Below are positions 3,484 through 14,687 of a DNA stretch of 64,000 nucleotides, piece after piece; the stretch's first letter is position 1, and every line of letters starts with the position of its first letter. The notes below the pieces were generated by a model. The model saw nothing but the letters and a program-made list of their open reading frames with translations, was not told the DNA's origin and did no database searches. The DNA comes from Gloeobacter morelensis MG652769 (GTDB lineage: Bacteria > Cyanobacteriota > Cyanobacteriia > Gloeobacterales > Gloeobacteraceae), in the NCBI RefSeq assembly GCF_021018745.1, contig NZ_CP063845.1, positions 3,596,001 through 3,660,000 on the forward strand, in the 5' to 3' direction. A program made the position numbers and the translations under genes.

Positions 3484-3516
3484 ATCAGGTGTCAGTAAGT
3501 GCCCTGACGCCTGATT
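3484..3516. terminator. Hairpin between convergent genes
   Basis: Twelve-base arms ATCAGGTGTCAG (3484-3495) and CTGACGCCTGAT (3504-3515) pair with one G-T wobble around an 8-base loop. The hairpin lies between the TauE-like stop and the MscS stop, so it can serve both strands. There is no clear T tract. Confidence 0.6.
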
Positions 3517-5167
3517 AGTTCAACTTACCGGCCGCCGGACCAAATTCGTTGGGATCCGCTTCGTAGCTCGGGGCAAAAATGCGAATGCCTGCCTCCTGGC
3601 AGCAGTCGCGGATGTTTTCGTGCAGTTGGGAATAGATCCTCTCAACAGTAAGCTCTGCGTTCGATTGAGCCATGACCAGCGCATCGATGTAGGCGTTCAG
3701 CTCGTAGGTGACGTAGACCTCGTTCAATTCTTTTTGCAGCACAAAAGGCTGGGGTTCTTGAGCAATGAACGTCGTGCGGGCCGCCGCCGCTTTGAGCGCC
3801 TCGTAGGCCCGGCGCCAGGGGACTTCATAGCCCAAAAATACTTTGGTGTGCAAGATCAGTTTTTTGTCCAGTTCGCGGACAGTATTGAAGTTCTCGATCT
3901 GCCGGGTGAGGATGTCGGAATTGGGGATATTGATGACCACGTTTTTGACAGTGATGATCCGGGTGACCAGCAGTGAAGTCTCGAGCACTCGCCCGACCGT
4001 GTCGCCGAGGCGGACGATGTCGCCGACTTTGAAGTTGCGCGTATAGATGAGCAGAGTGCCGGCGACGATGTTGGCGATGGCCGAAGTGGAACCCAGGGAG
4101 ACGAGAATGCCCAGAAATACCGAAATGCCTTGAAATGCAGGCGAATCGAATCCGGGCAGGTACGGGAAGATAACGACGGCAGCCAGGGCGATAGTCAGCC
4201 AGGTGAGCAGCCGATAGGTCGGCTTCGCCCACTCCGGGTAGAATCCGGGAAGCACGAAGGTCTCCCTTTCCAGTTGTTCGGAGAGGGGACGCAAAAATCG
4301 CAAAGCCAGGTAGGCTACCGTCACAACACTGATTATAAAAAAGACGTTCGGAATATAACCGATAATCGCCAGGCCAATCGTCTGAAAAGCTGACAAAAAG
4401 TAGCCACGGAATGCCGCTGCTATCTGGCGCGTCCAGGGGAACAGATCGAGCACCAGCGGAAAGTAAATGGCAAGCAAGCCCAGCACCACCGCAATCTGGA
4501 CGAGGCGCGCAAAGAAAGTAATCAAATCATCCAGTTGGTTGGCCTGCAACAGCTCGTAGCTGCCGATGTGGATGGGCCGGATGTAAACGTTTTCCCAGGC
4601 TTTGAGTACCCGGTAGAGCCGGGCGAAGACATGGTTGATGACCCTCAGGGCCGCCAGCAAAATGACCGTGGCTACGGCGGTATAGGCGCCGCTGCGCAGC
4701 AGGTAGCCGGTTTGCCGTTCCTGGCGGTAGCGGCCGACGGCCGATCTAATCTTTTCGAGAGAGTCCTTCGCCAAAGCTGTGCGGCTTTTGCCGGCCGCTC
4801 GGGCGTCCGCCTCGGAGAAGGTCGCAAGGTTGCCCCCCGGGTAGGAAATCGCGGTGAGGGGGATGCCCTGTTTATCACCCGATTCGATTCTCAAAGCGTC
4901 GAGGGGCTGGTCTTGATTCTGGGCAAATTTCACCAGCCGCTCGGTGGTGTTCTTGCCCCGCTCCGAGGCTGAAGCGCTCCCCAGTTCTACCTCGATGACA
5001 AACAGGGTCTTGCCGTCGAGGGCGACAGCGCCTGCGGCGGTCTGGGCGGTAGGAGATTTGGATTCAGTTTTGGAAGTCTCCTGGGCCGACAGCGGGCAGA
5101 TGAGCGCGGCTGACAGTACCAGGACGGCGACCAATCGGCTCACAATCCAGCGAAACCCAGGGTGCAT
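3515..5167 (-). CDS. MscS-family mechanosensitive ion channel
   Basis: Predicted small-conductance mechanosensitive channel or related osmotic-release protein, 550 residues. The ATG at 5167 is preceded by AGAGGTATGCC and gives a clear signal peptide (MHPGFRWIVSRL, hydrophobic stretch, then PLSAQ). A soluble Ser/Lys-rich region of about 150 residues follows, then several membrane helices and the MscS core. The pore helix region reads SLGSTSAIANIVAG, followed by the beta domain FKVGDIVRLGDTVGRV and NIPNSDI. The frame stays open upstream to 5383, but that extension has no sensible N-terminus. Divergent from the ABC transporter. The N-terminal periplasmic domain makes it larger than E. coli MscS. 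Confidence 0.9.
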   Translation of the reverse strand: MHPGFRWIVSRLVAVLVLSAALICPLSAQETSKTESKSPTAQTAAGAVALDGKTLFVIEVELGSASASERGKNTTERLVKFAQNQDQPLDALRIESGDKQGIPLTAISYPGGNLATFSEADARAAGKSRTALAKDSLEKIRSAVGRYRQERQTGYLLRSGAYTAVATVILLAALRVINHVFARLYRVLKAWENVYIRPIHIGSYELLQANQLDDLITFFARLVQIAVVLGLLAIYFPLVLDLFPWTRQIAAAFRGYFLSAFQTIGLAIIGYIPNVFFIISVVTVAYLALRFLRPLSEQLERETFVLPGFYPEWAKPTYRLLTWLTIALAAVVIFPYLPGFDSPAFQGISVFLGILVSLGSTSAIANIVAGTLLIYTRNFKVGDIVRLGDTVGRVLETSLLVTRIITVKNVVINIPNSDILTRQIENFNTVRELDKKLILHTKVFLGYEVPWRRAYEALKAAAARTTFIAQEPQPFVLQKELNEVYVTYELNAYIDALVMAQSNAELTVERIYSQLHENIRDCCQEAGIRIFAPSYEADPNEFGPAAGKLN

Positions 5168-5370
5168 TTGGCATACCTCTTTAGGGGAAGACGGTATCGA
5201 TTCTATTGCGTGCCGATCAAACTGGATCGCTCGCGGATCGCCACGCGGTCGCTGCCGCCCCGACCGTAAACTTTTGGTCGGTACAGCTGCGTGCAGGACT
5301 CGGGCGATGTGGCCGAGGACGAGCCACCCGAAAAAATGGCGGCTGCCGAAGGGGTGGACAGGTGACGACA

Positions 5371-7188
5371 ATGGAGATCTCATCCATCCGGTTCGGTGTA
5401 TCGATGTTCATCCGCCTGCGCCGCGTTCTAGAACTGGTCTGGCAGAGCGGCCCGCTCGCCTGCGTCGGTCTACTGATCCTCACGCTGGTAGGTGGAGTGT
5501 TACCCGCTGTGCAACTCTACGTCGGCAAGCTCATCATCGACACGGTCGTGGCCGCCTCCACGCGGCCGGACGGTGAAATCTTCACCAGCCGGGCGCTCGG
5601 ATTGGTGGGTTTGGAACTGGGGCTGCTGGTGCTCTCCGCCGCCGTCCAGACGGCCGGGTCGATCCTCCAGGAGGTCTTCGGTGAAAAGCTGACCTTCCAG
5701 ATCAACGAGCGGATCTTGCGCAAGGCAGACGCGCTGGAACTGGCCTACTTCGAGGATTCAAAATTCTACGACGCGCTGCAGCGCGCCCAGCGCGAGGCGG
5801 GCTACCGGCCCCTGGGTCTGCTGATCCAGAGCCTGTCGATTACCCAGAGCGTCGTCTCGATGGGGGCGCTGGTGGTCCTGCTCGCCCGCCTAGGAGCGTT
5901 CGTACTGCCGGTGCTGGTGCTCGCCTCGGTGCCGCTGCTGGTCACAACGGTGCGCTTCGTGCGCACGGGTTATCTGCTTGTGCAGGCGCGCACCCCGGAG
6001 GCCCGCAAGATGAGCTATATCAAGACGCTGATGGGCACCGACCAGGCCGCCAAGGAAATCAAACTATTCAACCTCGGGCCGTATTTTATTGAGAGTTTTC
6101 GCAACCTGTTTACAAAGGTGCACCGCGAGACGGTCGATCTGGCCCTGCGCAAAGGGGCGGCGCGGGTGGGAAGCAGCGCCTTCAACGCCCTCTGCTACGC
6201 GGGACTTTACGGGTACCTCATCTGGATGGCGCTTCGGCGGCTTCTGACCATCGGCGATCTGACCCTCTATGCCGGAGCGGTGCTGCAGCTCAACAACCAG
6301 TTGCAGTCGCTCAGCGAGAGCGGGGCGCGCGTTTATCAAAATGCGCTGTTTATCGACGATTTGTTCAGGTTTCTGGATCTCAAGCCCCGCAGGGCCGTGG
6401 CCGCCGCACCCCGGCCGCTACCCGAGCGCATCGAGCAGGGCATCCGCTTCGAAGCTGTCACTTTTCGCTATCCGGGTTGCGAGCGCGAGGTGCTGAGCGG
6501 TGTGAGCTTCGAAATCCGACCCGGCGAGACGGTGGCGCTGGTGGGCGAAAACGGCTCCGGCAAGACGACGCTGGTCAAGTTGCTCACCCGCCTGTACGAA
6601 CCCACCGGCGGACGCATCCTCCTCGAAGGTCGGGATCTAGCCGAGTACGAACCCGAGCAGCTGCGCGAACTGGTGGGGGTGGTCTTTCAGGATTTTGTGC
6701 GCTTTCATGCCACCGCCCGCGACAACATCGCCTACGGCCGGGTGGACGCCCTCACGGATTTTGAGCGCATCGAAGCGGCGGCGGCGCGCGGTGGGGCGGA
6801 CGCGCTCATCACCAGCCTCGCGCGCGGCTACGACACGATGCTCGGCAAATGGTTCCGCGAAGGCCAGGAGCTCTCCGGCGGCCAGTGGCAAAAAATTGCC
6901 CTCGCCCGGGCCTACATGCGCGCCGCACCGGTGCTGGTGCTCGACGAGCCCACCGCCGCCCTCGACGCGCGCGCCGAGCACGAAGTGTTCAGCAAATTCC
7001 GGGAGCTGCGCCAGGGGAAAATGGCCCTTTTGATCTCGCACCGCTTCTCGACGGTGCTCACCGCCGACCGCATCGTCGTGCTGGAGGGGGGCCGGGTCGG
7101 CGAGCAGGGAACCCACCGCGAACTTGCCGCCCAAAACGGGCGCTATGCCGAGCTGTTCACCCTTCAGGCAGAGGGCTACCGAGAATGA
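5371..7188 (+). CDS. ABC transporter, fused permease and ATP-binding domains
   Basis: Half-type ABC exporter of 605 residues that would act as a homodimer or heterodimer in the inner membrane. The N-terminal half has hydrophobic segments of a type-1 exporter transmembrane domain. The nucleotide-binding half has Walker A (GENGSGKTT), signature LSGGQWQKIALARA, Walker B VLVLDEPTAALD and the H-loop LLISHRFSTV. The ATG at 5371 follows AGGTGA at good spacing; the open frame further upstream lacks support. Substrate cannot be inferred. No partner permease or binding protein lies alongside, which fits a self-contained exporter. Confidence 0.92.
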   Translation: MEISSIRFGVSMFIRLRRVLELVWQSGPLACVGLLILTLVGGVLPAVQLYVGKLIIDTVVAASTRPDGEIFTSRALGLVGLELGLLVLSAAVQTAGSILQEVFGEKLTFQINERILRKADALELAYFEDSKFYDALQRAQREAGYRPLGLLIQSLSITQSVVSMGALVVLLARLGAFVLPVLVLASVPLLVTTVRFVRTGYLLVQARTPEARKMSYIKTLMGTDQAAKEIKLFNLGPYFIESFRNLFTKVHRETVDLALRKGAARVGSSAFNALCYAGLYGYLIWMALRRLLTIGDLTLYAGAVLQLNNQLQSLSESGARVYQNALFIDDLFRFLDLKPRRAVAAAPRPLPERIEQGIRFEAVTFRYPGCEREVLSGVSFEIRPGETVALVGENGSGKTTLVKLLTRLYEPTGGRILLEGRDLAEYEPEQLRELVGVVFQDFVRFHATARDNIAYGRVDALTDFERIEAAAARGGADALITSLARGYDTMLGKWFREGQELSGGQWQKIALARAYMRAAPVLVLDEPTAALDARAEHEVFSKFRELRQGKMALLISHRFSTVLTADRIVVLEGGRVGEQGTHRELAAQNGRYAELFTLQAEGYRE

Positions 7189-9643: not shown

Positions 9644-11512
9644 TCAGCGCGGGCCGCGCACCTGCCAGCGGGTGTCGGCGACGAGCGGCAGGGATTGGCG
9701 GGCGAGAAACACCGTGCCGTTCATCAGCCAGACGGCATTTTCGCCGGTGGCCCGGTGGCGCCAGACCAGGTCGGGGGCGGCGTCGTTGTTGTAATCGCCC
9801 ACCCCGCCTATTTCCCAGCGGGTATCCCCGACGCTCGGTAGGGAAAGCGATTTGGCAAAAGTGGTGCCGTTCATCAGCCAGACGGCGTTTTCGCCGGTGG
9901 CCCGGTGGCGCCAGACGATGTCCAATTTGCCGTCCCCGTCGAAGTGACCGGTCCCCACCACCTGCCAGTCCGGACCGGCCACCGCCGGCAGCGCGACCGC
10001 ACCGGTGTAGACTGGCCCGTTCATCGTCCAGACGCTGTTGGCCCCGCTGAGCGCATTGCGCCAGAGGATGTCGGTCTTGCCGTCGCCACTGAAATCCCCT
10101 GTGCCGACAATGTCCCAGTTGCCGTCGCCCACGGGCGGTAAGGAGACTGTCCCCACAAAAGCCGGGCCGTTCATGCGCCAGACAGTATTGGCGCCGGTGG
10201 TTTTGTTGCGCCAAAGTATATCGGTCTTGCTGTCGCCGTCAAAATCGCCGGTGCCCCCAATCTGCCAGTTGGGGTCGGCCACCGTCGGCAGATAGGCGAC
10301 GCCGGTCTGGGTGGTGCCGCTCATCAGCCAGAGAAGATTGGCCCCCGTCTCAGATAAGCGCCAGAGAATTTCAGAGGTGCGATCCGCGTTGAAATCGCCC
10401 CGGATGGGCAGCGCGCCGATTTTGTATACTGCGCCGCTATTGATCGACAGCCAGTACAACTGCCCATCCGGGCCGACTTTGAGATCGACCACGCCGTCCA
10501 GGCCCCTGGCGAACTCGCGCACCTGGGTGTAGTCGGCGGGTAGCAAACGGCGGAGGAAGCCCTGGATATAATCGGCAAAAAAGTAGTTGCCGCTGTAGGC
10601 CCCCGGAAACTGGGTGGCCTGGTAGAACGCGCCGCCGGCGATCGAGGCGCTGCTGCCGCGCGGGTAGCTGTAGACGGGATCGATAAAATCGGGATCGTCG
10701 GCGTCCCCTTCCACCGCGGGCCAGCCGTAATTGCCGCCTTTGGCCGCACGGTTGACTTCCTCCCAGGCGTTGGAACCGACGTCGTTGATAAAGATGGTGC
10801 CCGTACCCGGCTGGACAGCGAAGGTAAACGGGTTGCGCAGCCCCAGAGCCCAGATTTCACCGCGCGCCCCACCGGTGCCCACGAAGGGGTTGTCCGGCGG
10901 GACGATGTTCGGGTAAGCGCCCGGATCGACGCGCAGCAGTTTGCCGGAAAGCGTTCCCAGCGACTGGGAGTTGTCGGGATTGGACCCACCGTCGCCCACG
11001 CCCGCGTACAGTTTGCCGTCGGTCCCGAAGTGGATGGCCCCACCGTTGTGGTTACCGGTGTCGGAGGCGATGTTGTCGAGGATGACCAGCTCGCTCGCAG
11101 GTTCAGCCACGTTCGGGTTGGCGGCGCTGGCGGTAAAGCGGCTGAGCCGGTTTTTGACGGGCTCAGCGGCACGGGTGTAGTAGACGTAGAGATGGCGATT
11201 GGTGGCAAAGGCAGGATCGAAGGCGATCCCCAAAAGCCCCCGCTCGTTCTCAGTGGCGACATCCACTTGCAAAAACGGCTCACCAAGCAGACTGTCGCCC
11301 GCGATCACGCGCAGGGCGCCTCCTTTTTCACAGACAAACAACCGGCCGTCGGGGGCAAACTCCATGGCCGTCGGGGCGTCCAGTCCCTCTAAGACAAGCT
11401 TTTGCTGGAAACCGGCCGGAATCTGGGCGTGGGCAGCCGCAGCGATAGAGAAAATCGAAACACAAAGACTGCTTCCAAGCAGTCCTGACAGCGCACGGTA
11501 ATCGGTAAGCAT
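9644..11512 (-). CDS. Secreted PQQ-type glucose/sorbosone dehydrogenase with FG-GAP-like repeats
   Basis: Predicted periplasmic or extracellular sugar dehydrogenase, 622 residues. A signal peptide ends around AAAAHAQ. Residues about 30-370 form a soluble-glucose-dehydrogenase/YliI-type beta propeller (GLDAPTAMEFAPDGRLFV, NHNGGAIHFGTDGKLY, GLRNPFTFAVQPGTG). The last about 250 residues are five tandem units of about 47-50 residues with calcium-loop-like cores (GTGDFDGDSKTDILWRN). Such FG-GAP/VCBS units usually fold as an integrin-type propeller. The two most C-terminal units are nearly identical at DNA level. Convergent with the peptide transporter. PQQ dependence is a family inference. Confidence 0.85.
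   Translation of the reverse strand: MLTDYRALSGLLGSSLCVSIFSIAAAAHAQIPAGFQQKLVLEGLDAPTAMEFAPDGRLFVCEKGGALRVIAGDSLLGEPFLQVDVATENERGLLGIAFDPAFATNRHLYVYYTRAAEPVKNRLSRFTASAANPNVAEPASELVILDNIASDTGNHNGGAIHFGTDGKLYAGVGDGGSNPDNSQSLGTLSGKLLRVDPGAYPNIVPPDNPFVGTGGARGEIWALGLRNPFTFAVQPGTGTIFINDVGSNAWEEVNRAAKGGNYGWPAVEGDADDPDFIDPVYSYPRGSSASIAGGAFYQATQFPGAYSGNYFFADYIQGFLRRLLPADYTQVREFARGLDGVVDLKVGPDGQLYWLSINSGAVYKIGALPIRGDFNADRTSEILWRLSETGANLLWLMSGTTQTGVAYLPTVADPNWQIGGTGDFDGDSKTDILWRNKTTGANTVWRMNGPAFVGTVSLPPVGDGNWDIVGTGDFSGDGKTDILWRNALSGANSVWTMNGPVYTGAVALPAVAGPDWQVVGTGHFDGDGKLDIVWRHRATGENAVWLMNGTTFAKSLSLPSVGDTRWEIGGVGDYNNDAAPDLVWRHRATGENAVWLMNGTVFLARQSLPLVADTRWQVRGPR
9655..10400 (-). repeat. Tandem FG-GAP-like coding repeats
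   Basis: Five coding units of roughly 141-150 bp lie inside the dehydrogenase gene. The 48-base stretches starting at 9719 and 9869 differ at one base only. The other units keep the protein pattern (DILWRN, MNGP/T, LP-V-D) but diverge more in DNA, which points to recent duplication of the terminal unit. Confidence 0.8.
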
Positions 11513-11677
11513 GGTGCCTCTGGGGGCCTGCTATCAAGATCCCGAGCGAGCCGGGTTTTGCCATCCACCCCCGGGCGTAAGCTGTGTTACAGGCCCGTAG
11601 ATTTCTTTAAATAACCACGGTTGCCGTTGAGCCAGGCCGGATAATGAGGGTGAGACTGCATCGACAAGTAATACATA

Positions 11678-12745
11678 ATGCAAGCGATGATGTCCGGATG
11701 GTTCGCTGTTGTCTTTGGTACCCTACTCGCCTGGTTTACCCTCGCCGGCTCCGCCGATGGCCAGCCGGTAAACTGCACAGAACCAGCGCAGGCAGTACGA
11801 ACAATCTGGGCGAATTTTTATATCAATGCCGTCCGTGAGATCAACAGCCCGTCGAGTACTTTTTATGCAGATATTTATGTCAACTATGAGTGGTTTGACC
11901 CGGAGCTGAGTTCCGGAAATAGCGCTTTTCTAGATCGCGCCTCCGCCACGGATCCAGCCATTGAATTTGTCAATGGACGCGATATCAAACCGGTGTTTAT
12001 CGACTATTTACCCGCCAGGACCAACCGGGATGCCAATATCCGTGTGGAAGCCCGGTACGCCGGAACTTTCTTTGCAAATTTCCGCTTCACACGTTTTCCC
12101 TTTGACACCCAGGTGTTGCCGATTGTATTTGAATCGGAGAAGTATCCTTGCAGTAAGCTTGTAATTCGCTATCAGTTTCGCAGGCCTAGCGGCGAGCAAT
12201 CCCGGTTCTTTTTGTCCCAGGAAGTTGCCCTCAACCGACACGTCGAAAGCAGCCTTCGCCTCAACGAATGGGATATTCAGGAATTAAAGGTTACCGAAAG
12301 AATCCGCTCCCTACCCTACGAAGAAAGCCAGTGGTCGCAACTGAGAATAGAGATGGAAATTGGCCGAAAATCCGGCTACTATGTTTTCAAATTTATGTTG
12401 ATTATTACGTTGTTTTGCGGTCTCTCCCTCGGGGTACTACTGATCGATGCGAATATCATCAATTATCGTCTCTCGATACCCATATCGCTGCTTGTAGCGG
12501 TGATCGCCCTCAATTTTACCGCCGGACAGGTGCTGCCGCGCATTCCCTATTTGACCTTTCTCGATATCCACATTAATACCGCCTACTTGTGTATTATCCT
12601 GATCGCTTTTGAAGGAATTGCCGGCAAGATCCTCGTCTTGAAAAACCGGCAAGATATTGTCACGATGCTCAACCGGTACACGCTGGTGACCCTGCCGATA
12701 CTGTTCGTTGCCGTTCACGTAATCGCCCTGCTGACGCTAAAGTAG
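11678..12745 (+). CDS. Pentameric ligand-gated ion channel subunit (Cys-loop superfamily, GLIC-like but distinct)
   Basis: A 355-residue subunit of a prokaryotic pentameric channel in the inner membrane. A signal peptide covers residues 1-29. The beta-sandwich ligand domain has VNYEWFDPEL (68-77) and the Pro-loop FPFDTQ (140-145). M1 is about 233-255, M2 264-283, the M2-M3 loop LPRIPYLT 286-293, M3 296-316 and M4 333-352, with only a short M3-M4 link as in other bacterial members. From memory it is clearly not GLIC itself. Aligning the NxxxxxxLPxxPYxT block puts Asn at -2', Arg at 0', Ser at 2' and 6', Val at 9' and 11'. GLIC has Glu at -2' and His at 11'. Start codons at 11687 and 11690 are also possible. 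Ligand and ion are unknown. Confidence 0.88.
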   Translation: MQAMMSGWFAVVFGTLLAWFTLAGSADGQPVNCTEPAQAVRTIWANFYINAVREINSPSSTFYADIYVNYEWFDPELSSGNSAFLDRASATDPAIEFVNGRDIKPVFIDYLPARTNRDANIRVEARYAGTFFANFRFTRFPFDTQVLPIVFESEKYPCSKLVIRYQFRRPSGEQSRFFLSQEVALNRHVESSLRLNEWDIQELKVTERIRSLPYEESQWSQLRIEMEIGRKSGYYVFKFMLIITLFCGLSLGVLLIDANIINYRLSIPISLLVAVIALNFTAGQVLPRIPYLTFLDIHINTAYLCIILIAFEGIAGKILVLKNRQDIVTMLNRYTLVTLPILFVAVHVIALLTLK

Positions 12746-12870
12746 ATGGCTGTGCAAATCTGGAAACTGGCCCCGCAGCGATTCCCTTGACCTGTGCGCT
12801 TCGATCCTTTACGTTTTTGAACGTGGTTGCAGCAGGCGGAGCGCCCGCAGCGCTATTTGAGGGTATGTGC

Positions 12871-14117: not shown

Positions 14118-14687
14118 ATGCATTACCTACAAAAGCAGGCCATCGGGCTTGCCCTCGCGGCAGTGATCGTTCCTCAGTTTGTGGCCGCCCCGGCCAGCGC
14201 TGAGGAGACGACCTGCACCGGTTCGCTCGGCGCCATCACCGTGGACAACCTGCGCGTACCCCAGGGGGCGACCTGCACCCTGAGCGGCACCCGCGTCGAA
14301 GGGACCATCGTCGTCGAAGCGAACGCCACGCTCAGAGCGAACAAGGTGCAGGTCAAAGGCAACGTCCAGGCCGAAGGTGCCGCCCGGGTGAACGTGCTTG
14401 CACGCTCCACCGTCGGCGGCAGCATCCAGATTGTCCAGGGCGGCGCGGCGCGCATCGACAGCGTTCAGATCGAAGGGGATCTGCAGTTTGAAAGCAACTC
14501 CAAAAATCTGACCGCCAACAAAAACACGATCGGCGGCAGCCTCCAGGCTTTCCAAAATAGCGGCGGCCTGTCGATTACCGCCAACACCATCGACGGAAAC
14601 CTGCAGTGCAAAGAGAACAACCCTGCCCCGGTCGGCGGGGAGAATGTCGTCCAGGGCAACAAAGAAGATCAGTGCGCCAAGTTGTAG
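14118..14687 (+). CDS. Secreted beta-repeat protein of unknown function
   Basis: A 189-residue exported protein. Residues 1-28 form a signal peptide ending PASAEE. The rest is a run of short alternating strands (GTIVVEANATLRANKVQVKG, NVLARSTVGGSIQIV, GNLQCKENN), the pattern of a single-stranded beta-helix or bactofilin-like stack. Four Cys, in pairs near each end, could form disulfides. AGGAG precedes the ATG. It stands alone and ends before a T-tailed hairpin. No catalytic residues are recognised. A surface or periplasmic structural role is plausible but unproven. Confidence 0.75.
   Translation: MHYLQKQAIGLALAAVIVPQFVAAPASAEETTCTGSLGAITVDNLRVPQGATCTLSGTRVEGTIVVEANATLRANKVQVKGNVQAEGAARVNVLARSTVGGSIQIVQGGAARIDSVQIEGDLQFESNSKNLTANKNTIGGSLQAFQNSGGLSITANTIDGNLQCKENNPAPVGGENVVQGNKEDQCAKL

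Follow-up and report, generated by a model that had tools for sequence, protein, structure and literature searches.

The window, a stretch of 64,000 nucleotides from the genome of Gloeobacter morelensis MG652769, harbours at 11678..12745 on the plus strand an intact open reading frame, which begins with ATG and codes for a 355-aa subunit of a pentameric ligand-gated ion channel (pLGIC, Pro-loop receptor). The neighbouring gene upstream, on the opposite strand, encodes a glucose/sorbosone dehydrogenase with FG-GAP repeats, whereas a zinc-binding alcohol dehydrogenase (adh_fam_1 type) is encoded next to it downstream, in the orientation of the pLGIC gene.

In sequence and fold, membership of the 355-aa protein in the pLGIC superfamily is secure. 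The product matches Pfam family PF02931 (Neur_chan_LBD) with E=6e-11, above the curated cut-off, and a phmmer search against solved structures retrieved ELIC as the best PDB relative (2.3e-11), together with GLIC (2e-9) and with bacterial pLGICs that bear an N-terminal extension (~1.5e-8). The AlphaFold model, based on a 63-sequence alignment (pLDDT 86, pTM 0.80), consists of an extracellular beta domain and four helices, and its residues 35-355 match solved pLGIC chains with Z ~25 across 292-299 residues. A chance ORF is rejected by the phmmer and Pfam matches and by this fold match. The top structural scores (Z 24-25) belong to the eukaryotic anion channels GABA-A beta3, GluCl and GlyR; since all pLGIC scores lie close together, this ranking was rejected as an indication of ion choice. 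These channels resemble the 355-aa protein in having neutral residues at -2'/-1' and a basic 0' (the eukaryotic motif, PMC4795631), but the identity amounts to 15-19%, and the bacterial protein lacks both the Cys-loop cysteines and the long M3-M4 loop. Its cysteines occupy positions 33, 158, 247 and 305, with no pair around FPFD, so it is not a Cys-loop receptor of the metazoan type.

Conserved and lost residues of the encoded channel

The coding sequence opens with a signal-peptide-like N-terminus (putatively residues 1-28, 11678..11761), read directly from the sequence, with a modelled helix at 2-21. The Pro-loop motif F140-P141-F142-D143 (12095..12106) has a Pro and an Asp which are invariant among 63 homologues, and the pre-M1 Arg230 (12365..12367), a residue that pairs with the Pro-loop Asp in known pLGICs (PMC4795631), is Arg in 62 of the 63. 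Between them lies an extra extracellular segment of ~15 residues (about 172-188, 12191..12241), recognised by alignment and modelled with pLDDT <50. The model delimits helices M1 (residues 232-255, 12371..12442), M3 (294-321, 12557..12640) and M4 (325-354, 12650..12739). The M2 pore helix, set by alignments and model, comprises residues 261-285 (-3' to 21', 12458..12532), and the M2-M3 loop LPRIPYLT (286-293, 12533..12556) contains the invariant Pro287. All of these features are on the plus strand. The preliminary description of this DNA, which reported a superfamily protein with signal peptide, FPFD, four helices and LPxxPYxT, is thus reproduced by the sequence, by the modelled helices (232-354) and by the loop at 286-293.

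The hallmarks of the superfamily, i.e. the [F/Y]PxD Pro loop, the pre-M1 Arg, the beta9 aromatic residue (W198) and the M2-M3 Pro, are all present, and in the 63-homologue alignment the coupling residues P141, D143, W198, R230 and P287 are all retained. Across the superfamily, the Pro-loop Pro is conserved in 100%, the pre-M1 Arg in 94% and the M2-M3 Pro in 88% of sequences; the 355-aa protein has six of the seven residues listed in Table 1 of that survey (PMC4795631). The M1 kink proline (M1 14', GLIC P203/P204 depending on the numbering used), by contrast, is replaced by Ile242 (12401..12403, plus strand). A proline occupies this site in 61 of the 63 aligned homologues (56/58 in the L-INS-i set), the sole other exception being a Krumholzibacteriia pLGIC (L053:5896-6954) with Thr. 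The proline is 77% conserved superfamily-wide, with natural exceptions (PMC4795631), and is therefore characteristic of the superfamily without defining it. Further conserved residues are lost, namely the loop-A Trp (T91), a Gly (A119) and an Asp that normally precedes the Pro loop (R136).

These losses at T91, A119, R136 and I242, along with a very long branch in the tree and the lack of a close relative (see below), would fit a functionless foreign gene in decay. However, the 355-codon frame is intact, the fold is confidently predicted and the most strongly conserved residues of the Pro loop, pre-M1 and M2-M3 have been kept, which makes decay extremely improbable. The 355-aa protein is best regarded as a divergent, real, yet fairly ordinary member of its family.

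Pore register and predicted ion selectivity

Pore residues were counted in a 58-sequence L-INS-i alignment, which is ungapped against GLIC and ELIC from -2' through LPxxPYxT. In the lower half of M2 the GLIC residues E222 (-2'), A223 (-1'), N224 (0') and T226 (2') correspond to N262, Y263, R264 and S266, and in the upper half S230 (6'), I233 (9'), H235 (11') and E243 (19') correspond to S270, V273, V275 and G283. A pairwise BLASTP alignment with GLIC opens a 5-residue gap and places a ‘DAN’ segment (D257) near GLIC E222. The register with DAN at -2' is disfavoured because it requires this gap just where M2 begins. No gap interrupts the multiple alignment from -2' to LPxxPY, and the modelled M2 starts at residue 261; both put DAN in the M1-M2 loop. 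The assignments made earlier (-2' Asn, 0' Arg, 2'/6' Ser, 11' Val) are hence the same as those of the 58-sequence alignment and agree with the model, and alignment with GLIC and ELIC gives no Glu at -2', no His at 11' and an identity to GLIC of 21% (BLASTP).

The preliminary description emphasised that the pore is different. While this is true with respect to GLIC, it is misleading as to the family, since 0' Arg is the majority state and several other pore states found here are the commonest ones. At 0', Arg occurs in 36 and Lys in 3 of the 58 sequences, and R/K makes up 79% of 561 sequences surveyed (PMC4795631). Among the 58 homologues, 11' His is seen in two Gloeobacter GLICs only, and 11' Val ties with Leu as the commonest state. 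At 2', 13' and 16' the commonest states are likewise those found here (Ser, Ala and Phe). Judging by this alignment, the contrast arises mainly from GLIC itself being the family outlier, with its 0' Asn and 11' His as the unusual pore residues. Less usual in the 355-aa protein are the lack of an acid at -2'/-1', the Ile in place of the M1 proline, the changed proton-gating positions and the ~15 extra extracellular residues. Even so, Glu at -2' is present in 10 of the 58 homologues, and acids are missing at both -2' and -1' in 29, of which 16 have a basic 0'.

The selectivity filter is formed by a Glu at -2' in GLIC (PMC5760087) and at -1' in ELIC (PMC12637682). Both are absent from the 355-aa protein, and strict cation selectivity by means of an acidic filter ring is therefore unlikely. 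With neutral residues at -2'/-1' (Asn, Tyr) and Arg at 0', the selectivity might, with less assurance, be weak or anion-leaning, and anion permeability taken by itself is a possibility that we rate somewhat below even. One must bear in mind that the inner mouth could gain negative charge from D257 of the M1-M2 loop, counter to an anion-leaning pore, and that the pre-M2 motif is generally insufficient for predicting selectivity in prokaryotes (PMC4795631).

Candidate activators and gating

Eight GLIC positions (E26, D32, E35, D122, E222, H235, E243, H277) have been named as altering activation (PMC5760087). D122 alone is retained (D143), and the equivalents of E26, D32, E35, E222, H235, E243 and H277 are A, S, S, N, V, G and K, respectively. 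A different activator, as proposed in the preliminary description, is accordingly plausible with seven of the eight positions changed; on the other hand, retention of 1/8 is nothing special, given that a typical homologue in the 58-sequence set keeps 1.8/8. Proton gating through other titratable residues would be compatible with the retained D143 and with the finding that in GLIC the response is shared among many dispersed residues, none of which is the only sensor (PMC5760087), but as the other seven equivalents are all missing, we regard it as highly improbable.

Another candidate is an ELIC-like cation channel gated by a small amine, in which ELIC-type contacts are kept and D257 or the loop backbone confers cation selectivity. 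ELIC (Erwinia/Dickeya chrysanthemi), as mentioned, is the best PDB relative and shares with the 355-aa protein 0' Arg, 13' Ala, 16' Phe, the LPRxPYxT loop and partly similar ligand contacts: Y67, V98, E152 and W219 align with ELIC Y38, I79, E131 and F188 (PMC9674596 for the ELIC ligand contacts Y38, I79 and E131). Tyr67, Val98 and Glu152 may thus weakly favour a small amine ligand, bearing in mind that an E152-type residue is common across the family (32/63 homologues). ELIC F133, however, aligns ambiguously (E154 or Y156) and ELIC Y175 falls opposite a gap. The pore differs as well, with Tyr (Y263) for the filter Glu of ELIC at -1', Ser for Gln at 2' and Val for Leu at 9', and the M1 proline is missing. 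The tree does not group the two proteins, though the AU test does not reject such a grouping (p 0.20). Taken together, an ELIC-like channel appears rather unlikely.

The absence of the M1 proline bears on whether the protein conducts at all. In GLIC, conventional replacement of this proline (P203A and others) abolishes the current, and P203L retains surface expression yet is silent (PMC4813548); the 355-aa protein, therefore, might not gate normally. Since a GLIC orthologue is encoded in the same genome, a non-conducting or modulatory subunit, co-assembling with that GLIC or acting as a receptor without current, is conceivable. With a superfamily-wide conservation of 77%, however, loss of the M1 proline need not silence a channel, and the identity to the supposed partner is just 21%. 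To our knowledge, no heteromeric prokaryotic pLGIC has been described, and a modulatory role is considered very unlikely.

We therefore favour, with a probability of roughly 0.6, a divergent and probably ligand-gated channel which is not proton-gated in the style of GLIC, has weak or anion-leaning selectivity and was probably acquired laterally. Such a channel would be a homopentamer in the cytoplasmic membrane, its extracellular domains facing the periplasm and a small molecule binding at the interface between those of neighbouring subunits. The signal would pass from the Pro loop (D143) via the pre-M1 R230 to P287 in the M2-M3 loop, whereupon M2 would open, the gate being a putative hydrophobic girdle of V273 (9') and F280 (16'). 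Within this scheme, the absence of GLIC-type proton gating and the weakly selective or anion-permeable pore are the less certain elements.

Relatives and origin of the gene

The 5.1 Mb genome contains two pLGIC genes, the one at 11678-12745 of the window and a GLIC orthologue (G000:C1:2767759-2768718; L001, L010) whose product is 95% identical to GLIC (Glr4197) of Gloeobacter violaceus; a sibling Gloeobacter genome (G001) encodes a protein identical to the PDB sequence of GLIC over 359 residues. At 21% identity, and with the 95% orthologue elsewhere in the genome, the 355-aa protein is neither GLIC nor a recent duplicate of it, which bears out the earlier statement that it is not GLIC. The two have superfamily, fold, coupling core and genus in common. 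They differ in the -2' Glu, 11' His, 19' Glu and E35/E26/D32 equivalents, all missing here, in Arg for Asn at 0', in the lost M1 proline, in an M1-M2 loop longer by 2 residues and in the additional extracellular segment.

Matches to pLGIC homologues were found in 59 of the 390 sampled genomes of the class (~15%), several of which have two or three, but none of the 390 yielded a close relative. The best match, cyanobacterial pLGIC L012 (31%), forms no robust clade with the 355-aa protein. The cyanobacterial L016 group (e.g. L016, L018) has Arg 0' and Pro 4' in common with it, yet mostly carries an acid at -2', and both this group and L012/L013 retain the M1 proline. No orthologue occurs in the other 8 Gloeobacterales genomes examined, scanning 84,980 species genomes with the chosen patterns returned distant relatives only (mostly 21-29% identity), and plasmid sequences and viral contigs gave no match, on which ground carriage by a plasmid or virus was rejected. 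In the tree the protein forms the longest end branch (2.32 changes per column) and falls, with support that is not firm (93/76), into a cyanobacterial/archaeal/Paenibacillus group, grouping with neither ELIC nor GLIC (AU p 0.175 for the latter). AU tests of four groupings (GLIC, ELIC, L012/L013 and the L016 group) rejected none and established none (p 0.18-0.46).

The gene lies in a segment (approximately 11483..12855, plus strand) that genome comparison revealed to be absent from two sibling Gloeobacter genomes. There the same flanking genes are divergent and ~200 bp apart, and an intergenic stretch of ~230 bp, unrelated in sequence but shared by both siblings in conserved form, takes the place of the ~1.37 kb of the window that includes the pLGIC gene. 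The 248 bp upstream of the gene have no other match within the genus. The gene itself has a GC content of 49.5% versus ~62% in the surroundings, with a GC3 of 59% as against 77-80% in the neighbours. Because a lone, GC-poor gene occupies a site that is empty in the siblings, a single-gene lateral acquisition is likely. However, the GC3 of the GLIC orthologue is equally low (58.9%), hence low GC is no proof of recent acquisition, and gene loss in both siblings yields the same pattern as gain. Neither insertion-sequence nor repeat borders were found around the gene, and a promoter and terminator scan gave no more hits than shuffled sequences. This single-gene setting, the lost M1 proline and the same-genome GLIC orthologue had been overlooked in the preliminary description, although its observation as such stands.

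GLIC is a leading structural model for pLGIC gating, and a second pLGIC beside it, devoid of the acidic ring and the M1 proline, offers a ready comparison for the essentials of gating and selectivity. The protein adds a divergent new member to a known superfamily and is noteworthy chiefly for accompanying GLIC and for the absence of the M1 proline. Should it be an anion-permeable natural bacterial channel that gates without the kink proline in the same cell as GLIC, a combination which seems unlikely, it would provide a native-protein test of the need for both that proline and the acidic filter ring.

Several other genes of the window deserve mention. A mechanosensitive channel gene of the MscS family (3515-5383, minus strand) is situated ~6 kb from the pLGIC gene. 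The glucose/sorbosone dehydrogenase-FG-GAP-like fusion (9644-11512) has dozens of related repeat copies across Gloeobacter genomes. Meanwhile, the region 14118-14687 encodes a secreted-looking 189-aa protein, with a sub-threshold Pfam match only, whose repeats suggest a beta-solenoid.
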